The notes under the pieces are model-generated. The model saw nothing but the letters and a program-made list of their open reading frames with translations, was not told the DNA's origin and searched no databases. Positions 4,810 through 14,791 of a stretch of DNA of 15,836 bases are shown here, piece by piece (position 1 is the stretch's first letter; every line of letters starts with the position of its first letter). Source of the stretch: Gemmatimonadota bacterium (GTDB taxonomy: Bacteria; GCA-2686955); NCBI GenBank assembly GCA_002686955.1, contig NYZA01000027.1:1-15836 (forward strand), in the 5' to 3' direction. The position numbers were made by a program, and so were the translations under genes.

Positions 4810-5751
4810 ATGCAGCAGGAACTCATGCTCCCCACCGGCGAGCTGATCGGTCGCGACCCCACCTCGTTGGTGGGGAATACTCCGCTCTTGGCGCTTCGCT
4901 CACTGAGCCGCGAGGTGGCGCCGGTGCGGATCTATGCGAAGGCGGAGTGGTTCAATCCCGGTGGATCGGTGAAGGATCGGGCGGCTCTCGCGATCATCGA
5001 GGATGCCGAGCGGAGAGGCGTGCTGGAGCCAGGCGGCACGATTCTGGACGCTACCTCGGGGAACACGGGGATCGCCTATGCGTGGATTGGCGCGCATCGG
5101 GGTTATCGGGTGGAGCTGACGCTGCCGAAGAGCGCGAGCCAGGAGCGGAAGCGGATCTTGCGGGCGTATGGCGCGGAGTTGGTGCTTACCGATCCGGCGG
5201 AGGGGTCGGATGGGGCGATCCGTGCGGCGGAGGAACGGCACCGGGGTGATCCGGGGCGGGCGTTCTATGCCGATCAGTACGGAAATCGGGCGAACTGGCG
5301 AGCGCATGAGCTGGGGACGGCGCGGGAGATCTACGCGCAGACGGCCGGCAGGGTCACCCATTTCGTGGCGGGGTTGGGCACGAGCGGGACCTTCGTCGGC
5401 ACCGGAAGGGGACTGCGGGGACTCGATTCGGAGATCGAGCTAGTGTCGTTTCAGCCGGCGACGCCTTTGCATGGCCTCGAGGGGATGAAGCATATGGAGA
5501 GTGCGATCGCGCCGGCCATCTACGATCGGCGGCTGGCGGACCGGAATCTCTGGATCGAGACCGAGGAGGCGTACCGAATGGTGCGGCGGTTGGCGCGGGA
5601 GGAGGGCCTGCTCGTCGGAGTGTCATCCGGTGCGGCGGCGGCTTGCGCCTTGCGCGTGGCCCGCGAAATCGAGACCGGTGTTGTCGTGACGGTGTTCCCC
5701 GATGGCGGCGACAGGTATTTGAGTGAGCGTTTCTGGGAGGAAGAGAGATGA
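4810..5751 (+). CDS. cysM: PLP-dependent cysteine synthase, probably sulfur-carrier-dependent (CysM type)
   Basis: A 313-residue fold-type II PLP enzyme of the cysteine synthase family, near the family's usual length. VGNTPLLAL (21-29) is the N-terminal motif. NPGGSVKDR (49-57) carries the PLP lysine K55. SGNTG is the substrate loop, GLGTSGTFVGTG binds the PLP phosphate, and VSSGAAA near the C-terminus faces the pyridine nitrogen. The enzyme makes cysteine by beta-replacement on an activated serine. The neighbours, a JAMM protease and a CysO-MoeB-rhodanese fusion, point to the mycobacterial-type route in which a thiocarboxylated carrier protein donates the sulfur, likely to O-phosphoserine. 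The acceptor is inferred, not visible. The start is not certain: ATG 4810 has only a weak upstream signal, while the in-frame ATG at 4825 is closely preceded by AGGAA. The stop overlaps the mec start as ATGA, so the genes are translationally coupled. Confidence 0.93.
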   Translation: MQQELMLPTGELIGRDPTSLVGNTPLLALRSLSREVAPVRIYAKAEWFNPGGSVKDRAALAIIEDAERRGVLEPGGTILDATSGNTGIAYAWIGAHRGYRVELTLPKSASQERKRILRAYGAELVLTDPAEGSDGAIRAAEERHRGDPGRAFYADQYGNRANWRAHELGTAREIYAQTAGRVTHFVAGLGTSGTFVGTGRGLRGLDSEIELVSFQPATPLHGLEGMKHMESAIAPAIYDRRLADRNLWIETEEAYRMVRRLAREEGLLVGVSSGAAAACALRVAREIETGVVVTVFPDGGDRYLSERFWEEER

Positions 5752-6173
5752 TACGGTTGACCGAAAAGCATCGCCGTGAGATCGAGCGGCATGGCGAGGA
5801 GGTTTTTCCGAATGAGTGTTGCGGTTTCCTAGTCGGTGACGCGGCTTCGGGATTGCGGTCGGTCCGCGAGGTCTGGCCGGCAACGAACGGACGAGGCGAT
5901 TCGCCGAAAAACCGATACATCGTTCCTCCGCTCGAGGTCGTTCGGGCAGAGCTCGAGTGTCGTCGTCGGGGCCTCGACGTGGTGGGTTACTACCATTCCC
6001 ACCCAAATGCTCCCGCTCGCCCTTCGAGTTTCGATCGTGAGCATGCGTGGGCGGATTATAGCTACGTAATTGTGTCGGTCGCGAAGGGGAAGGCCGAGTC
6101 GATGGCATCATGGGTCGTGTCGGATCCCGATGGACCCTTCGTCGAGGAGACGATGGCGGAGAGCGAGACCTGA
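5748..6173 (+). CDS. mec: JAMM/MPN metalloprotease of the Mec type (releases cysteine from CysO)
   Basis: A 141-residue M67-family protein, essentially a single JAB/MPN domain. The zinc site is complete: E23 in NECCGFLVG, then HSH (H83, H85), seven residues, S93 and D96, fitting the JAMM pattern HxH-x7-S-x2-D. In Mycobacterium the homologue Mec hydrolyses the CysO-cysteine adduct formed by CysM, freeing cysteine and regenerating the carrier. That matches the position here, between cysM and the carrier/activating-enzyme fusion. The start ATG 5748 overlaps the cysM stop (ATGA) and uses the GAGGAAGAGAG inside the end of cysM as its ribosome binding site. A second plausible job in this operon is cleaving after the internal Gly-Gly of the fused carrier domain; that is inference. 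Cytoplasmic, no signal peptide. Confidence 0.92.
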   Translation: MIRLTEKHRREIERHGEEVFPNECCGFLVGDAASGLRSVREVWPATNGRGDSPKNRYIVPPLEVVRAELECRRRGLDVVGYYHSHPNAPARPSSFDREHAWADYSYVIVSVAKGKAESMASWVVSDPDGPFVEETMAESET

Positions 6174-6194
6174 TCGATAGAGAGGATGATTTCG

Positions 6195-7610
6195 ATGCAA
6201 ACTGAAATACTGATTCCAACTCCGCTTCGTCGCTTCTCCAATAACGAAAGCTCGGTATTCGTGGAGGCAACGACGGTTGGCGAGGCTTTCGAACGATTGG
6301 TGGTCGATCATCCGGAGCTACGCAGGCATCTGTTCGCGGAGAGCGGTGCGTTGCGCAGCTACGTCAATGTGTTCCTTGGGGACGAGGATATTCGACATCT
6401 GCGCGGGGTCGAAACCCCTCTCGAAGCGGGGGTCCTTCTGACGATCGTGCCCGCGATCGCTGGAGGATCGGGGGCGGATCTGGATGCAGGTGAGATCGCT
6501 CGATACAGCCGCCACCTGATCTTGCCTGAGGTGGGGATGGGGGGGCAACGCAAGCTCAAGGCGGCGAGCGTCTTGCTCGTCGGAACCGGGGGCCTGGGAT
6601 CGCCGCTCGGGATGTATCTCGCGGCGGCGGGGGTCGGGAGGATCGGCTTGGTCGATTTCGATGTCGTGGATCATTCCAATCTGCAACGACAGATCATCCA
6701 TGGGACCAAGAACGTGGGGCGCCCAAAGCTGGAATCGGCTCGGGAGCGGATTCTCGACATCAATCCGAGAACGGTGGTCGACCTGTACGATACGCGCCTA
6801 TCTTCCGACAACGCTCGAGAGATCGTTCGACTCTACGATTTGGTGATCGACGGCACCGACAATTTTCCAACGCGCTATTTGGTCAACGATGTGTGTGTGC
6901 TCGAGGGCAAACCGAACGTCTATGGGAGCATTTTTCGTTTCGAGGGGCAGTCGAGTGTCTTTTGGGCTGAGAGGGGGCCGTGCTATCGATGTCTCTATCC
7001 CGATCCACCTCCACCTGGGCTCGTGCCGAGCTGTGCGGAAGGAGGCGTGTTGGGAGTGCTGCCGGGGATTATCGGCACGATCCAGGCGACCGAGGGAATC
7101 AAGCTCTTGCTGGGGAGAGGGGAGCCGCTGATCGGACGTCTTCTTCTATTCGACGCGCTCGACATGCGCTTCCGCGAGCTGAAGCTGCGGAGCGACCCTG
7201 CGTGCCCGGTGTGCGGAGAGAGCCCGACGATCCGAGAGCCGATCGATTACGAGGCGTTTTGCGGAGTCGTGCCGGCGCAGCATCATCCCGAAGAGTGGGA
7301 CGTGAGCCCACGGGAGCTGATGGAGCGCTTGCGGCGAGGGGACCGGTTGGTGCTGCTCGACGTGCGCTCCCCCCAGGAGTGGGAGATCTGCCGCTTGCCC
7401 GACGCACGACACATCCCGGTGGACGATCTACCCTCGCGCGTCCGTGAGCTCGACTCGACGGACGAGATCGTCGTCTACTGCAAGATGGGGGTGCGGAGCG
7501 CGACCGCCGCGCGCTTCTTGAAGGACGCGGGCTTCGGAAGGCTGCGGAACCTCCAGGGCGGGATTCTCGCGTGGGCCGACCAGATCGATTCGAGCGTGCC
7601 GAAGTACTGA
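6195..7610 (+). CDS. Fusion of CysO/MoaD-like sulfur carrier, MoeB/ThiF adenylyltransferase and rhodanese
   Basis: A 471-residue cytoplasmic protein with three domains. Residues 1-91 are a ubiquitin-fold sulfur carrier resembling CysO (IPTPLRRF..., YVNVFLGDEDIRHLRG..., LTIVPAIAGG), with Gly-Gly at 90-91. Residues about 98-350 are an E1-like adenylyltransferase: ARYSRHLILPEVG, nucleotide loop GTGGLGSP (130-137), DFDVVDHSNLQRQ, DGTDNFPTRY, the MoeB-type cysteine C280 in SCAEGGVLG, and zinc cysteine pairs CYRC (263/266) and CPVC (337/340). Residues about 370-471 are a rhodanese with active-site loop CKMGVRS (C429). Together they would adenylate the carrier C-terminus and turn it into a thiocarboxylate for CysM. 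The carrier's Gly-Gly is internal, so cleavage or in-cis chemistry is needed. ATG 6195 was chosen because GAGG lies 9 nt upstream; ATG 6186 abuts that GAGG. The gene starts 21 nt after mec, in the same operon. Confidence 0.92.
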   Translation: MQTEILIPTPLRRFSNNESSVFVEATTVGEAFERLVVDHPELRRHLFAESGALRSYVNVFLGDEDIRHLRGVETPLEAGVLLTIVPAIAGGSGADLDAGEIARYSRHLILPEVGMGGQRKLKAASVLLVGTGGLGSPLGMYLAAAGVGRIGLVDFDVVDHSNLQRQIIHGTKNVGRPKLESARERILDINPRTVVDLYDTRLSSDNAREIVRLYDLVIDGTDNFPTRYLVNDVCVLEGKPNVYGSIFRFEGQSSVFWAERGPCYRCLYPDPPPPGLVPSCAEGGVLGVLPGIIGTIQATEGIKLLLGRGEPLIGRLLLFDALDMRFRELKLRSDPACPVCGESPTIREPIDYEAFCGVVPAQHHPEEWDVSPRELMERLRRGDRLVLLDVRSPQEWEICRLPDARHIPVDDLPSRVRELDSTDEIVVYCKMGVRSATAARFLKDAGFGRLRNLQGGILAWADQIDSSVPKY

Positions 7611-7843
7611 GCGCACGCTGGGAGTGTGGGTAGAGCAGGCGGCCCTGGGTCATTTTTCACCTACGGGCGGCGCGATCGACGACTTCGTCGAACACGAGGC
7701 GGCCAATGTCCTCGGAGCATCCGGCCAAGCGCTTGTGGTTCAGCCGATTTCACCCAAGAATGTGCCGTGGCACGTTGCACGCTATGTATGGCTCCCTCCG
7801 GACCGATCCGATTCCTCCTCTACCACCTCAGCGGGAGGCGCTC

Positions 7844-10800
7844 GTGCGCTCGATATCGACCTTCCCTTCGGCTCTCCTGACACTCATCGCGCTCCTCGCC
7901 GCGACCGGCCGGTCGCATGCCACGACCTGGCTGGTCCACGCCGACGGTACGGGCGATGCTCCCACTATTCCCGCTGCCATGGATGCTGCTTCGAGCGGAG
8001 ACACGGTCCTCGTGAGCGCCGGCACCTACGCCGATCTCATTCAAGACGCCTACGGGCTGTGGGTTGGCGTCGAAATGAAAAACGGGGTCGCCCTGATCTC
8101 CACGGACGGAGCATCATCGACAACGATCGACGTCACCGACGACAGCCTTTTCACGCGCGGCATCAGCGCGAGCGCCTGCGACGGCGGCACCTCGATCGAG
8201 GGATTCACGATCACCGGCGGTGACCAGTACGACGGCGCCGCGATCTGGATCTCTGGGGGAGCTCCGATCATCCGCGACAACATTATGCTGAATGCCTATG
8301 GCGGCCAGGCGGGTTCGATCTCGATCGCGACGGGGGCCACTCCAACGATCGAGTCGAATGTTTTCGACGGGAGCTACGCTTGCTGCGGTATCGGGGGAGC
8401 GATCCTGGGGCTGTCCTCCGATCCGATTATTCGCGACAACACCTTCTTCGAGTGCGGCTCCGCCTGGAACGGGGGTGCCATTGCGCTACAGTCTTCGGGG
8501 GGTGAGATATCGAACAACGTCTTCGAGGGCTGCTACGCAACCGATGGCGGCGCGCTCTATTTCGGCGATGCCGATCCGCTGGTCGAGAACAACCTCTTCT
8601 CCGGCAATTATGCGACCGACGACGGGGGCGTGGCCTCTTACACGAGCTCGAGCGCGGGTGGATTTCGACTCAATATCTTGACCGAAAACTCGGCCGACGG
8701 CAACGGCGGTGCTTTTTTCGTTGCCGATTCCTCGCCGCTGGTGGAAGAGAACACAATCGCCGGAAACGCTGCGCTTTCGTTGGGTGGTGGATTCTACCTC
8801 GATGGGATTTCGTCCCCCGTCTTCGCTCGCAATATCGTCGCATTCAACCAGGGGGAGAGCGGTTTCTACAGCGCCCATCCCTTGGTAGCGGCGAGCTTCG
8901 AGTGTTGTGATGTCTTCGGCAACGAGGGAACGCAGTACGGTGGATTCCTCGTCGATCCCACCGGCACTGACGGCAATCTGTCGGTCGATCCCGGCTTCTG
9001 TCAAGATTCGGTGGCGCTGAAGTTCTGTTCCCCTCTCGTTGATGCCGAGAGCTGCGGACTGATCGGAGGCGTTGGGGTGGGATGCGAGTGCGCGCTCGGC
9101 CCCAGAGTGAGCGAAGCGCCGCTGCCCGCGCCGATTGCCGCGGCGGCGATCAACACCGGGGTCGACGGAATCCGGCTGGTGGGATCGAACGGAATTCAGT
9201 TCGCGCATATGATGTCGTTCGCCGTCAACGGCGACTATGCATACGCGTCCGTCGGCGCTTCAATGGGCCTGGAGACCTACGATATCTCCGATCCCAGTGC
9301 CCCGATTCGAATCGACGCGGCCGGCCCCGCATCCTGGCGGAGCGAAGTTTCTGGCGACACGTTGTTCAGCTTTCAGCATTTCCGTGGCGTCGAGATGCTC
9401 GATATCTCCGGCGGCATCCCCAGCTCGATCGATTCGTACGACCCGACCGATCCGGATGTCGCGTTCGAAGGCGGCGCGCGGGTCGGCAATCGACTCTATG
9501 CCGCCGCCCATCAAGAGGGGCTCTACGTTCTCGCGATCGGCCCCGGCCTCAGCTTCGATTCCATCTTCGCTCTCCAAGACGCCGCGGCGTGGAATGTCGC
9601 CGCTCAGGGGAACCATCTCTATGTGGCGAACGGTCGCTTCGGCCTCTCCGTGATCGATATTTCCGCGGCACCGGTCGAGATCGCCACGCTCGATCTGCCG
9701 GGCCTCGCCAATGACATCGAAGTCGACGGAAACACCGCCTACCTCTCGCTGGCGGCTGAAGGAATCGCCTCGATCGATATTTCCAACCCGGCATCTCCGT
9801 CGCTTCTGGATGTCGAGCCGACGAAGGGCAACGCCCTCTCGATGGGACTCGTCGGAACCACCCTCGCCGTCGGTGCCTACACCAGGCTGGAGACCTACGA
9901 TGTCAGCGATCCGAGCGATATCCGGCTGAACGCCTGGGAAGGCACGCCGGTGTGGGCGATGGGAGCCGGAGCCGGAGTGACGAGCTCGGGCGACACGGTA
10001 TTCGTCGTAGCTGACTGGGAAGGGATGCTGGTGTACTCGCCGGGTATTGATGCGCTGCCCGATATCGACGTGCATCCGACGCAACTCGATTTCGGACCGG
10101 TCTGGGGTTCGCGCGACACGATCGTGACGGTGCTCAATACCGGAGGAGGAACACTGAACGTGCTGGCCATGTCGACGCCGTCGGGATTCTCGGCAACACC
10201 CAGCAGCTTTTCGGTCGCGCCGGGGTCGGCCCAGGAGGTGACCGTGAGCGCCACCGGATCGGCCCAGGTGAATGGAGAGATCCGCTACTTCAGCGACGAC
10301 CCGGATGAATCCACGGTCGATCAGCCCACTTTCAAGAACAGCACCTTGTTCCCGGCGATCGGATCGATCGCACCGGAGTTCACGCTCAGCGGCACAGATG
10401 GGAACACACATACGCTCTCCGATTATCGAGGTCGGGTCGTCTATCTGGAGTTCGGAGCCAACTGGTGACCGATCTGTCCGCTGCAGGCTGCAGCGACGGA
10501 CGGCGCGATCTTCTCCAGCTACGACACCACCGACGTCGTGATCTTCGAGATCACGAGAGAGATGAGCTACTCCCTGGAATTTCAAACCACTTTCGGCATG
10601 CGTTTCGTCGGCCTGGAAGACCCTTCCGGGGCCCAATACAGCACCTACCGCGTTCCCGATCCGCTGGCGCCCTACCCCCAAGATTACGTAATCGATGCCG
10701 ATGGCGTAGTGCGCTACTGGTCGCGGGAGTACGATCCCCAGCATGTGACGCAGGTGATCGATCAGTTGACCGGGGGGCCGTACGAACTGGAAATCGATCC

Positions 10801-11098
10801 CGATCCGCTCGTGGGTGGGCAGCAGGGGAGCTTCGCGGTCGAGCGCGGTACGCCGAATCAGGCGAGCTATCTCGTTTACAGTCTGGCCGGCCCGGGATCG
10901 ACCTACGTTCCTCAACTCGACGTGACCCTGGGGCTCGCATCCCCCGTTCTGGCCGCACCTCCCCTCGATGCCGACCAGGACGGCGCCGCCACATGGATCG
11001 GAATTGTGCCGGGAACAGCCAACACCCTGCCGGTCTGGCTGCAGAGCGCGCAGTTCGGCAGAGTCAGCAACATCGTAGCGACCGAAGTGGTGCCGTGA
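7844..11098 (+). CDS. Secreted multidomain selenoprotein: beta-helix, LVIVD propeller, ASH-like Ig, UxxC redoxin, C-terminal beta domain
   Basis: Read through the in-frame UGA at 10466-10468 as selenocysteine, this is a 1084-residue protein. The GTG at 7844 has GGGAGG five bases upstream and opens a signal peptide (about 1-26, ending HA); an ATG at 7706 would bury that signal. Residues 27-430 form a parallel beta-helix with repeated GGA/GGG and NN turns. About 435-733 are LVIVD propeller repeats (LETYDISDPSAPIRI, SVIDISAAPVEIATL). About 736-826 form an ASH-like Ig domain (LDFGPVWG...VLNTGGGTL). About 836-976 form a TlpA/AhpC-like redoxin: SIAPEFTLSGTDG, RGRVVYLEFGANW, then U875-P-I-C878, and the cis-Pro-like YPQDYVIDADG. 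Residues 977-1084 form a beta domain (YLVYSLAGPGST, LDVTLGLASP) seen at the ends of secreted proteins. It probably reduces disulfides or peroxides outside the cytoplasm. A nonsense TGC-to-TGA mutation is the rival explanation. Confidence 0.8.
10466..10468 (+). other. Predicted selenocysteine codon (UGA)
   Basis: The TGA falls exactly where the first Cys of a thioredoxin CxxC would be: ...FGANW-[UGA]-P-I-C-P. The frame stays open and domain-like for 630 nt beyond it. Standard TGA stops elsewhere in the window exclude a recoded genome. Confidence 0.78.
10469..11098 (+). other. Downstream half of the selenoprotein, beyond the Sec UGA
   Basis: This is the in-frame continuation after UGA 10466-10468. 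A conventional caller would report it as a separate ORF starting at GTG 10538 or ATG 10562, or end the gene at 10468. Neither alternative start has a good ribosome binding site, and either would give a redoxin domain lacking its first strand and active site. The segment holds the resolving Cys (TGT 10475-10477), the rest of the redoxin fold including YPQDYVIDADG, and the C-terminal beta domain. It is listed separately so that an annotation split at the UGA can be recognised. Confidence 0.7.
10474..10503 (+). promoter_or_regulatory. Putative bacterial SECIS hairpin
   Basis: Starting 5 nt after the UGA, the transcript can fold as follows. The lower stem pairs GUCC (10476-10479) with GGAC (10498-10501) and can be extended by a U-G and a C-G pair at its base (10475-10502, 10474-10503). 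Bases GAC (10495-10497) bulge on the 3' side. The upper 6-bp stem pairs GCUGCA (10480-10485) with UGCAGC (10489-10494), closed by loop GGC (10486-10488). The GG of the loop begins 17 nt after the UGA. The known bacterial SECIS features (hairpin just 3' of UGA, G at the start of the apical loop, loop roughly 16-37 nt from UGA) are met. The upper stem resembles the GCA-GG-loop of the E. coli fdhF element. SelB would bind it to direct Sec insertion. Confidence 0.6.
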
Positions 11099-11136: not shown

Positions 11137-12396
11137 TCCCCATCCCCACCGCACAATCACCCGGCACCCTCCCCCAAATCCCTCCTCGATCCAAGCCTCC
11201 CCCCCGTGCCGCTCGGCCACCCGGCGCACTATCGCCAACCCGATCCCGTATCCCGTCCCCCCCGCTGCTCGATTCAGGCGTACAAAGGGCTCGAACACCC
11301 GCTCCCTCTCCTCGACCGGCACCCCGGGCCCGTCGTCCTCCACGGAGACCACCAGCGACACTTTTTCGGCGACCGCGCCAACCTTCACCTCCCCTTGCGC
11401 GTGCCGCAGCGCATTCGACAACAGATTCCCCACCACTCGCCGGAACAGCCGCGGATCGGCCGCCAGCTCCGTCCCCTCCTCGAGCCCCGCATCGAGAATC
11501 AGCGCGATCCCGCGCCCCGCCGCCTCGTCGGCCATACCGCCCACGAGATCTTCCAGCTCCTTCGCCGGCCAGGTCGTGCCTTCGCAGGGGTCACCGCTCT
11601 CGAGCCGCGCATAGGTCAACAGCTCGTCGACCAGGCGTGAAAGCTCCTCAAAATCTAGATCCAGCTCCTCCAGCCGTCTATCGCGTTCGGCGCGATCTTC
11701 GACGTGAGTCAAAATGTGCATCGCGGTCTGGATGCGGGCGAGAGGAGTGCGCAATTCATGAGAGACCGCGCGCAAGAGCTCGCGCTGCGATTCGATCGTC
11801 GAGGCCGTCGTCTCGGCCATGCGGTTGAGCGCACCCGCAAGGGTGTGCGTCGGCCCCTCGATCACCGGTGCCCGAGCGGCGAGGTCGCCGCCGGCGATCT
11901 GTGCGGCGGTCGATTCCACCATGCGGAGCTCGCGCTCGACGGGACGCAGCAAGCGACGAATCGCCAGAGCGCCCAGCAGCGGTACCAGCAACACCAATCC
12001 GATGGTGACATAATACTCCGTGTTCGGATAGGGAGGCAACGGGCCGAGTCGCAACGCATGATCGCCTTCGCCGATCAGCACGAAGATGTACTCCTCGGCG
12101 GCATAATGCCAGACCAGCTCCATGCCCCACTCGAACTCCTCCTGCACTTCGTTGGGCAGAAGATCCCACTCCATCACTCGAACCGGGTAGCCGTACTCCT
12201 CCGAAACCTCGCCGGCGCGTTTCGGATCGGCCAACAGCTCATCGCCCTGGTTCAACAGAGGGCCGAGCAGCAGCGACTCGTGGTAGGAAGCGTATTGGGG
12301 CGGGTAGAGATACTGATCGTACAGCCATCCCAATCCCCCGATCGCGGAGCAGACAACAAAGACCATCAACCAGAGACGGAGAAAGAGTCCCCTCAC
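11122..12396 (-). CDS. Membrane sensor histidine kinase (HAMP, HisKA, HATPase_c)
   Basis: A 424-residue sensor kinase. A transmembrane helix spans about residues 7-26. Residues 27-127 are an extracytoplasmic sensor region rich in Glu/Tyr/Trp with no recognised fold, and the second transmembrane helix lies at about 128-150. A HAMP linker follows (RRLLRPVERELRMVESTAAQIAGGDLAAR, about 147-200). The dimerisation/phosphoacceptor domain has H213 in VSHELRTPLARIQ. The ATPase domain shows the N box (VVGNLLSNALRHA), G1 (VEDDGPGVP) and G2 (GTGYGIGLAIVRRV). It autophosphorylates on H213 and passes phosphate to the response regulator encoded just upstream, whose stop overlaps its GTG start as GTGA. This overlap implies translational coupling and fixes the start. 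The ligand is unknown. The operon context suggests it senses something processed by the exported amine oxidase or the redox state outside the membrane; that is inference. RstB/CpxA-like layout. Confidence 0.93.
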   Translation of the reverse strand: MRGLFLRLWLMVFVVCSAIGGLGWLYDQYLYPPQYASYHESLLLGPLLNQGDELLADPKRAGEVSEEYGYPVRVMEWDLLPNEVQEEFEWGMELVWHYAAEEYIFVLIGEGDHALRLGPLPPYPNTEYYVTIGLVLLVPLLGALAIRRLLRPVERELRMVESTAAQIAGGDLAARAPVIEGPTHTLAGALNRMAETTASTIESQRELLRAVSHELRTPLARIQTAMHILTHVEDRAERDRRLEELDLDFEELSRLVDELLTYARLESGDPCEGTTWPAKELEDLVGGMADEAAGRGIALILDAGLEEGTELAADPRLFRRVVGNLLSNALRHAQGEVKVGAVAEKVSLVVSVEDDGPGVPVEERERVFEPFVRLNRAAGGTGYGIGLAIVRRVAERHGGEAWIEEGFGGGCRVIVRWGWGGAAK

Positions 12397-13085
12397 GGCA
12401 GCCCCGCGAAGAGGTAGCCGGCGCCGTGGATCGTCTTGATCCAGCGCGGGTTCTTCGGATCGTCCGCCAGGCCGCGGCGCAGGCGCGAGATACGAAGATC
12501 GATCGAGCGGTCGAGGCCGTCATGCTCGAGCCCGCGGAGCTCCCGCAAGATCTCGTCGCGGGTCACGACCTCACCCGCGCGGCGAACGAGCAGGTGCAGA
12601 AGGTCGAATTCCGCCGTGCTGAGAGGGACGGTTCTGCCTTCGAGCTCGACGGCGCGACGTCGGGGATCGATGACCAGATCGCCCATCCGAAAGGGCTCGG
12701 CCGGTGCCCCCGCCCCACCGGAAGTGCGGCGAAGCAGCGCCCGGACCCGCGCCAGGAGCCTCGGCGGACTCACCGGCTTAGTGAGGTAATCGTCGGCGCC
12801 CACCTCGAGTCCCAGAATCTCGTCGTGCTCCTCACCACGCGCCGTGACCATCAAGATCGGACCCTCGAATCCTCTCGATCGGCACGCCCGGCAGACCGAA
12901 ACTCCGTCGAGCCCGTCGAGCCCGATGTCCAACACGACCAGGTTCGGCTTCTCCGCGAGGATCTGCTCGAGCGCCACCTCTCCGCGCGCCTCCAACTTGG
13001 CCTCCATGCCCTGCAGACCGAGCAGCTCGACAACCAAGTTGCCAAGGCGGATGTCGTCCTCCACGACTAGGATTCTCGGGCGCAC
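12393..13085 (-). CDS. OmpR/PhoB-family response regulator
   Basis: A 230-residue two-domain regulator. The receiver domain (about 3-118) has the acidic pair D10/D11 in VVEDD, phosphoacceptor D53 in VVLDIGLDGLDG, T81 in MVTARG and K103 in LTKPVSP. After a Gly/Ala linker, residues about 130-228 form the winged-helix DNA-binding domain, with LSTAEFDLLHLLVRRAGEVVTRDEIL, the recognition-helix region DRSIDLRISRLRRGL and the wing TIHGAGYLF. The frame is open far upstream, but the GTG at 13085 is preceded by GGAGA five bases away and starts exactly at the receiver's first strand (RPRILVVEDD), so it was chosen. It lies 44 nt after the amine oxidase stop and overlaps the kinase start, so it is in the same operon. 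It probably regulates this operon or envelope functions; the targets are not visible. Confidence 0.94.
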   Translation of the reverse strand: MRPRILVVEDDIRLGNLVVELLGLQGMEAKLEARGEVALEQILAEKPNLVVLDIGLDGLDGVSVCRACRSRGFEGPILMVTARGEEHDEILGLEVGADDYLTKPVSPPRLLARVRALLRRTSGGAGAPAEPFRMGDLVIDPRRRAVELEGRTVPLSTAEFDLLHLLVRRAGEVVTRDEILRELRGLEHDGLDRSIDLRISRLRRGLADDPKNPRWIKTIHGAGYLFAGLP

Positions 13086-13129
13086 TCGACTCTCCGGGCT
13101 TTCCGGTTCTTCTCCTGGGTTCCGTGAGA

Positions 13130-14791
13130 CTACCTTCGCGAACGCCGCCGCATCGCGGCCAGGATCTCGCTCGCCGCGCGCTCCCCGGTCTCGGCCGCAC
13201 CCTCGAGGAAGCCCTGAAAGCGCAGACTCGTATGATCGCCGGCGAAATGCACCCTCCCTTCGACCTCCGGCTCCAGCCCGCGGATCGTCGAGTATTGACC
13301 CAAGGCGTAGGCGGGATATGAACCCCGGAGCAGAGGTGAGCTGGTGGGGTGTACGCGAAAGACGCGGCCGTTCCACTTGTCCCCCAGACCCGGCAGGATC
13401 GGGTCGATATCGGCCAAAAAGGCCGCGGCCCGCTCCTCGGGCGTGCCCTCGTCGAAGTTCGCGCCGAATTCACCTCCGAGATAGTCGACCAGGATCCCCG
13501 ACATGCCCGGCTGCACCGACGCGCCATCCCAGGTCGCCTGGAAATCGCGGTCGCTCCAGATGTCGCCGTCCTTGCCCAATGTTCGCCAGTGCCGATCGCT
13601 GAACTGCATGATCAGCTTCGAGTTGGTTGCGATCCCGAGCTGGTCGATCGCGTTCCGCTTCTCCGGGCGCAGATCGAGACCGGATAGATCGATCTCACGC
13701 AGCACGCTGAAGGGCAAGGCGAGCACGACGCGGTCGACGCGCGTCTCCACGGTGCCCCCGGGGGTGTCGAAGGTGAGCCGCACTCGCGCCCCCTCCGTCG
13801 CCGCCGAGACAAGGCGATGATTCAGCTCGATCTGACCCGGCAACGCCCCGGCGAGGCGAGTCGAAAGCAGATCGGTCCCTCCTTGGATGTGCCAGACCGC
13901 GAGCGGCCCCTCGTCTTCGGAGAGCGCACGCGATCGGCGCCGCCCACGGGCCAGATCTTGACCCAGACCGGCACGCTCGCCGCGGCCGCCCCCCTCATCC
14001 CCCGCCAGCGCCGAAAGCCCGTAGACGATATTGAGCGAGCTGAGCTGCGCCGGCTCCATGCCGTATTCGTTCCGAATATGCACGTCGAGAAGCTGCCCGA
14101 TCCGCGACGACATCCCGCCCGAAACGCGCGTCTCCATCCACTCGGTGACGCTCATCTCGTCGAGCGCGCGTCCGTGGGGAGTGCTCTCGTAGAAGGTCGT
14201 ATCCCATCCGGCCCGCGCACCGTCCCGAACCGCCATCCGCACCACCGGAATCAGGTCGACCACGATCCGCCAGAAGGGGTAGGGCTCCCCGTCGATGTCG
14301 AAGGTCGTCCGCAGGCCGCCCGGAATGTTGTTGAGGTTCTCGAGCTCGAGCCCGGCCTCCCGCGCGATCCGGATCAGGGTGTAGTGGTAGCCGTCGATGA
14401 ACTCCGCGTGCGCCTCGGCGATCTGGTCGTCGTTGAAAAGGCCGCGCAGTGTCCATGCTCGACCACCGACCCGCGTGTCGCCCTCGTACACCTTGGCGAC
14501 AACATCCGCCTCTCGCAGGCGGTAGGCGGCGATCAGACCGGCGAAACCGGCGCCCACGATCGCCACCTCGTCGTCGAGGGAGCGAGAGGGGCGCTTCGCC
14601 CCGATCTCGGCCATGCGGCCGCGCGCCACCGGGGGCATCGCCCCGGCGAGCAGCAGACCGCCACAGGCCGTGCCGGCTCTCGAGATGAACCGTCTACGAG
14701 ATGCCTGCTCCGGGTGAAGCTCATCGTTGACGAGCTCTTCGGCGCGGGCCCAGGCTTTGGCGAAGATATGGGTAGAAATCGAGCGGGCCAT
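13130..14791 (-). CDS. Tat-exported flavin amine oxidase (FAD-dependent)
   Basis: A 553-residue flavin-containing amine oxidase. The ATG at 14791 has AGGAGC upstream at suitable spacing. A twin-arginine motif, SRRRFIS (31-37), precedes a hydrophobic stretch (to about 57), so it is probably exported folded with FAD bound, after a long n-region. The FAD-binding Rossmann fold starts VAIVGAGFAG (G80, G82, G85), followed by the acidic residue in VYEGDTRVGGRAWT. The C-terminal family signature VHFAGDHTSLRFQGFLEGAAETGERAA closes the FAD site. WHIQGGTDLL and the middle substrate-binding region match the monoamine oxidase family. The substrate cannot be told. Residues about 265-293 form an Arg/Gly-rich insertion of low complexity. 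It lies 21 nt after the Reeler/CxxCH gene and 44 nt before the response regulator in a four-gene operon. Confidence 0.9.
   Translation of the reverse strand: MARSISTHIFAKAWARAEELVNDELHPEQASRRRFISRAGTACGGLLLAGAMPPVARGRMAEIGAKRPSRSLDDEVAIVGAGFAGLIAAYRLREADVVAKVYEGDTRVGGRAWTLRGLFNDDQIAEAHAEFIDGYHYTLIRIAREAGLELENLNNIPGGLRTTFDIDGEPYPFWRIVVDLIPVVRMAVRDGARAGWDTTFYESTPHGRALDEMSVTEWMETRVSGGMSSRIGQLLDVHIRNEYGMEPAQLSSLNIVYGLSALAGDEGGGRGERAGLGQDLARGRRRSRALSEDEGPLAVWHIQGGTDLLSTRLAGALPGQIELNHRLVSAATEGARVRLTFDTPGGTVETRVDRVVLALPFSVLREIDLSGLDLRPEKRNAIDQLGIATNSKLIMQFSDRHWRTLGKDGDIWSDRDFQATWDGASVQPGMSGILVDYLGGEFGANFDEGTPEERAAAFLADIDPILPGLGDKWNGRVFRVHPTSSPLLRGSYPAYALGQYSTIRGLEPEVEGRVHFAGDHTSLRFQGFLEGAAETGERAASEILAAMRRRSRR

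Follow-up and report, generated by a model that had tools for sequence, protein, structure and literature searches.

Redoxin selenoproteins with a UxxC motif are already on record. Those of PF00578, termed 'Prx-like thiol:disulfide oxidoreductase' and carrying UxxC or UxxU, form a listed family (PMC9312934, PMC13188914, PMC1794560), and UxxC selenoproteins of PF08534 are listed as the Redoxin family (PMC9312934, PMC13188914). Here we analysed a 15,836-nt stretch of DNA from a Gemmatimonadota bacterium (contig NYZA01000027.1; hereafter the window), in which a preliminary description had noticed an in-frame TGA at the redox-active position of a thioredoxin-like domain. It also noted that known UxxC selenoproteins place Sec at this position.

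The window redoxin resembles the Prx-like selenoproteins in matching PF00578 above the cut-off (58.0 bits against 26) and in having Sec first in UxxC. It differs from them in its setting: they are listed as a domain family, whereas the window redoxin forms the C-terminal portion of a protein with a predicted signal peptide, a propeller, an Ig-like domain and a sorting/anchor tail. The separation of the window protein from the Prx-like family (reference WP_010940744.1) was made by means of review descriptions. It shares UxxC and a PF08534 match (37.5 bits against a cut-off of 26.6) with the Redoxin family selenoproteins, but PF00578 fits it better, and a propeller-Ig architecture is unmentioned in PMC13188914. 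ResA, TlpA and DsbE have the same fold (TM ~0.75-0.8) and active-site layout, with WCxxC and a cis-Pro loop; the window redoxin differs in having Sec for the first Cys and in being fused to propeller and Ig domains. It falls outside the ResA model itself (NCBIfam NF002854; 36.1 bits against a cut-off of 170). The ResA-like WAxxUGC selenoproteins of NF041054 are likewise Sec-containing ResA-like redoxins, but the window protein is absent from the matches to this model, its motif is WUPxC, and its homologue L047 scores 28 bits against a cut-off of 300. Sec peroxiredoxins have TxxU, whereas the window protein has UxxC, and in alignment with TxxC peroxiredoxins its Sec falls on their Thr. No NCBIfam model matches the window protein above cut-off.

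The suggestion of an undescribed selenoprotein thus divides: the UxxC Sec site of PF00578 is of a known kind, while for the propeller-Ig-Sec-redoxin architecture no description was found. In the open-access literature, to which the search was confined (subscription papers and preprints lay outside it), nothing joined selenoprotein with LVIVD, and the type IX secretion query returned only unrelated work. Within that literature the propeller-Ig-Sec-redoxin subfamily appears to be undescribed. With it, the bacterial selenoproteome, whose listed families are mostly recognised by one redox domain each, would gain large exported proteins of several domains.

A single UGA interrupts the redoxin reading frame

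TGA 10466-10468 (+ strand) is the sole in-frame stop within a frame of 1,131 codons (7706-11098). The frame is open from 7634 and, once the UGA is read through, runs from ATG 7706 to a terminal TGA at 11096-11098. The features of the gene are as follows.

7706..11098, + strand: predicted selenoprotein gene, read through UGA; 1,130 residues including Sec from ATG 7706
7784, + strand: alternative start ATG; the predicted signal-peptide-like stretch extends to ~...RSHA (nt 7921); start and stretch both judged by eye
7922..9106, + strand: NosD/parallel beta-helix (PF05048, 43.1 bits), not in homologues, which begin directly with the propeller
9149..10042, + strand: LVIVD beta-propeller (PF08309, 52.7 bits; AF2 model; Foldseek propeller matches)
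10043..10348, + strand: ASH/HYDIN-type Ig-like domain, choice-of-anchor D type (PF22544, E 8e-5, slightly below cut-off; above cut-off in homologues)
10349..10768, + strand: AhpC/TSA (ResA/TlpA-like) redoxin with UxxC (PF00578, 58-62 bits; AF2 pLDDT 85)
10466..10468, + strand: UGA codon, predicted to be read as Sec, first position of U-P-I-C
10469..10503, + strand: predicted SECIS hairpin of bacterial type; its apical loop, AGGCU, comes ~16 nt 3' of the UGA
10661..10699, + strand: cis-Pro-like loop and next strand, LAPYPQDYVIDAD; P110, D112, I115 and D116 (domain numbering) invariant in 11 sequences
10769..11095, + strand: C-terminal domain, also on other predicted surface proteins of the genome and of a relative

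The residues around the TGA (...VVYLEFGANW-U-PICPLQ...) place it at the first Cys of a WCxxC redoxin motif (W-U-P-I-C), as the preliminary description had read from FGANW-U-PICP. Beyond it the same frame continues for 630 nt, its own stop counted, and PYPQDYVIDADG lies 3' of the UGA in this frame. Profile search supports the view that one redoxin domain is broken by TGA alone: with PF00578 the joined sequence reaches 58.0 bits over the whole protein and 61.6 bits for the domain, and the pieces taken singly give 25.8 and 19.0 bits. Four residues are invariant in the stretch of the cis-Pro-like loop proposed at the outset and the strand after it. The extent given there, 10350-10770, holds for the redoxin, but the gene is larger (7706-11098, or 7784-11098 from the alternative start), and the conserved unit begins at ~9149.

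The UGA is conserved among homologues

One-per-species genomes were searched with an Ig+redoxin alignment in which the Sec column was masked and with patterns that leave out the UGA site. Ten loci with both domains were obtained (L066-L075), from Calditrichaeota, two WOR-3 genomes, Neomarinimicrobiota, an FCB bin and other bins. All ten of these homologues from named genomes have TGA at exactly the same codon, and tRNA-Sec and selA score above cut-off in every one of the ten host genomes. In 11 sequences the U, P and second C of the UxxC motif are invariant. Of 90 aligned redoxins, 29 have TGA at the site, 54 a Cys codon, five Thr, one Ser and one Tyr, and none has TAA or TAG; since loci with stops were partly chosen for this sample, no frequency of TGA can be read from it, and the informative part is the absence of TAA and TAG.

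A nonsense mutation, pseudogene or base-calling error would end the gene at 10468 and leave the rest decaying or as a separate ORF. The standard code does read TGA as a stop, and ORF calling by program splits the gene at 10466-10468. However, the same TGA recurs in at least ten independent assemblies from several phyla, the other two stop codons never occur at the site, and the downstream frame is conserved: amino acid identity between the window and seven homologues is 53-68% over the 100 codons after the UGA and 42-55% before it, and downstream of the UGA codon positions 1 and 2 are better conserved than position 3. The decayed downstream half that would have spoken against a selenoprotein was not seen. 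Because the same UGA is found in independent assemblies, a base error at 10466-10468 is judged very unlikely from these comparisons; decay or error as a whole is extremely improbable, and we rejected it on account of the aligned UGAs.

Selenocysteine machinery and a covarying hairpin

The host draft genome (4.28 Mb, 84.5% complete) contains the full selA, selB, selC and selD set whose presence the preliminary description had proposed to check: tRNA-Sec (76.9 bits, anticodon tca), selA (498.7 bits), selB (327 bits, a 647-aa ORF) and selD (322.6 bits). For comparison, SelB scores above cut-off in 15 of the 31 genomes of the relatives sample. The host selD has an in-frame TGA of its own (LVPAGG-U-ARKL), at the position that we take as the one where SelD usually has Sec or Cys. 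This TGA points, from within the genome itself, to decoding of UGA by the organism.

A predicted hairpin with a conserved loop G, as looked for in a bacterial SECIS element, lies directly 3' of the UGA. Folding of the 40-nt stretch that begins at the UGA gives -21.5 kcal/mol (z -3.3), and an equally stable hairpin with a suitably placed G accompanies only three of the 317 TGAs in the window on both strands, TGA 10466 included. In 15 aligned sequences (14 distinct) A20-G21 of the loop are invariant and the stem is paired in 85.1% of cells, against at most 52% in slid registers. Five stem pairs have changed on both sides, in 23 such cells against 9.6 expected, and none of 500 shuffles reached the paired share or the covariation score of the stem. 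The hairpin energies of the five homologues tested all lie within ~1.3 sd of shuffles and so are not unusual; SECIS support therefore rests mainly on covariation. Coding constraint also shapes this region, alongside any SECIS role. An Rfam scan of the window gave no match above gathering score.

UGA read-through by non-Sec routes occurs in some bacteria, and the codon might on that ground be decoded as another amino acid, either through reassignment of UGA to Trp or Gly throughout the genome, or by a suppressor tRNA. Against this, the position is held by Cys in relatives, the genome has the full Sec machinery, the hairpin covaries, and TGA terminates seven of the ten window genes, the selenoprotein gene among them, as expected from the earlier claim that UGA is an ordinary stop here. 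Genome-wide reassignment was rejected, TGA being a normal stop in this genome, and decoding as any other amino acid is very improbable.

From the machinery, the aligned UGAs, the covarying hairpin and the lack of TAA or TAG at the site, we conclude that the locus is a selenoprotein gene, neither a pseudogene nor an assembly error. The gene at 7706-11098 very probably encodes a protein with Sec at UGA 10466. SelB with Sec-tRNA would decode this codon as selenocysteine, guided by the hairpin in the coding sequence directly 3' of it; the scheme combines sequence, machinery and covariation. Gene finders probably cut this family in two at the UGA, with loss of the active site, and it is probably mis-annotated in many bins.

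Paralogues and phylogeny

UGA stands at the site in five redoxins of the host genome, labelled C27 (the window gene), C66, C14, C108 and C203; the genome also has Cys redoxins without stops. Two sister paralogues (support 100/99) differ at this position: L127 (G000:C14) has Sec in NFGEYW-U-GSC, and L128 (G000:C47) has Cys in NFGEYW-C-GPC.

In a tree of 83 redoxins, a single clade (99/82) unites the propeller-Ig Sec redoxins with the shorter paralogue C66; its 13 members all have Sec. Elsewhere in the tree Sec and Cys are interspersed, and at least four changes are forced. The alignment has few columns and the bootstrap is unsettled, so that starred forks alone were used; the C108 and C203 proteins were left out. 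The family raises the question of why a surface redox enzyme of uncultured lineages keeps Sec in all copies seen, when Sec and Cys replace each other in ordinary redoxins.

The two proteins left out, L114 (G000:C108) and L115 (G000:C203), are large, with propeller- and Ig-like sequence before a C-terminal Sec redoxin (AAFASW-U-PICGLEV), and look like another branch built on this design. Genome G208 has two propeller-Ig-Sec-redoxin genes, L117 (G208:C262), with a long insert in the propeller region, and L086 (G208:C261). Many further redoxins with TGA at the active site were seen in unrelated genomes (L049, L051, L059 and L061), with tandem pairs in L049 and L061.

Domain architecture and predicted export

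The homologues share one layout: an N-terminal signal-like stretch, an LVIVD propeller, an ASH/HYDIN Ig domain and a PF00578 redoxin. In the window protein the NosD beta-helix is inserted between leader and propeller. AF2 models have pLDDT mostly ~85-96 for the propeller and Ig domains and a mean of 85 for the redoxin. After the redoxin most homologues have a FlgD/T9SS-type tail, at the position of the C-terminal domain of the window protein; L047, L066, L068 and L070 carry a C-terminal sorting domain, and the tail of L074 is dockerin-like. Profile search found neither Por_Secre_tail nor FlgD_ig in the window protein, and by sorting domain it does not class as a T9SS cargo. Its C-terminal domain recurs on further large proteins, probably exported, from its own genome and from its one family relative. 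From the signal peptide, judged by eye, and the T9SS-type or anchor tails of the homologues, the product is predicted to be exported and to act outside the cytoplasm.

Partial termination is common at Sec codons, and the part before the UGA (NosD, propeller and Ig) could fold alone as a binding protein. The UGA might thus serve mainly as a regulated stop, with most of the product a propeller/Ig protein without the redoxin and the Sec form made only when selenium is available. Yet the redoxin and its UGA are strongly conserved in every homologue, and the tails of the homologues sit after the redoxin, which points to the full-length form as the selected product. A mainly regulatory role is unlikely, and it would in any case be compatible with the selenoprotein reading.

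Proposed function

Foldseek with the whole model gave mainly propellers, and the redoxin was therefore modelled on its own. Its best solved structural matches are Bcp4 of Sulfolobus (top), a putative protein disulfide isomerase, ResA and DsbE. In this Bcp/ResA/TlpA-like fold Sec stands just ahead of the first long helix, at its N-terminus, as in thioredoxin-like active sites.

On this basis an extracytoplasmic thiol:disulfide oxidoreductase is a reasonably likely role, with redox direction and substrate proposed from fold similarity alone. The Sec selenolate would attack a disulfide (or a peroxide), the Cys three residues downstream would resolve the intermediate, and the propeller/Ig part could hold the enzyme at the surface or bind a partner, with the Ig domain as a spacer.

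The main functional rival is a peroxiredoxin-like peroxidase rather than a disulfide reductase or isomerase. PF00578 membership, the top rank of Bcp4 and the alignment of the second Cys with the peroxidatic Cys of TxxC peroxiredoxins speak for it. PDB sequence matches of the redoxin, however, are mostly thioredoxin-family or ResA proteins, ResA is the best NCBIfam match (though far below cut-off), and in the WUxxC motif Sec takes the place of the peroxiredoxin Thr. We regard a peroxidase as possible but doubtful. There is about an even chance that the propeller-Ig-Sec-redoxin proteins, all copies of which seen here have Sec, make up an unrecognised and widespread class of selenoproteins displayed on the cell surface in the FCB group and related phyla, located outside the cytoplasm and acting on extracellular disulfides or oxidants.

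Gene neighbourhood

Among the homologue loci looked at, in part quickly, no shared neighbour gene pointed to a pathway. Neighbours in the window considered as functional partners, namely the cysteine synthase-JAB-ThiS/ThiF-rhodanese cluster and a two-component system, are not conserved beside the homologues and were rejected. The cluster, at 4810-7610 upstream of the selenoprotein gene, has cysteine synthase (PALP), Prok-JAB and a ThiS-ThiF-rhodanese fusion in tandem, and resembles a cluster for cysteine synthesis of the sulfur-carrier (Mec/CysO/CysM) type. On the minus strand, ORFs 12393-13376 (response regulator) and 13130-14791 (amine oxidase) overlap by ~250 nt as called; the true start of the response regulator is probably further in.
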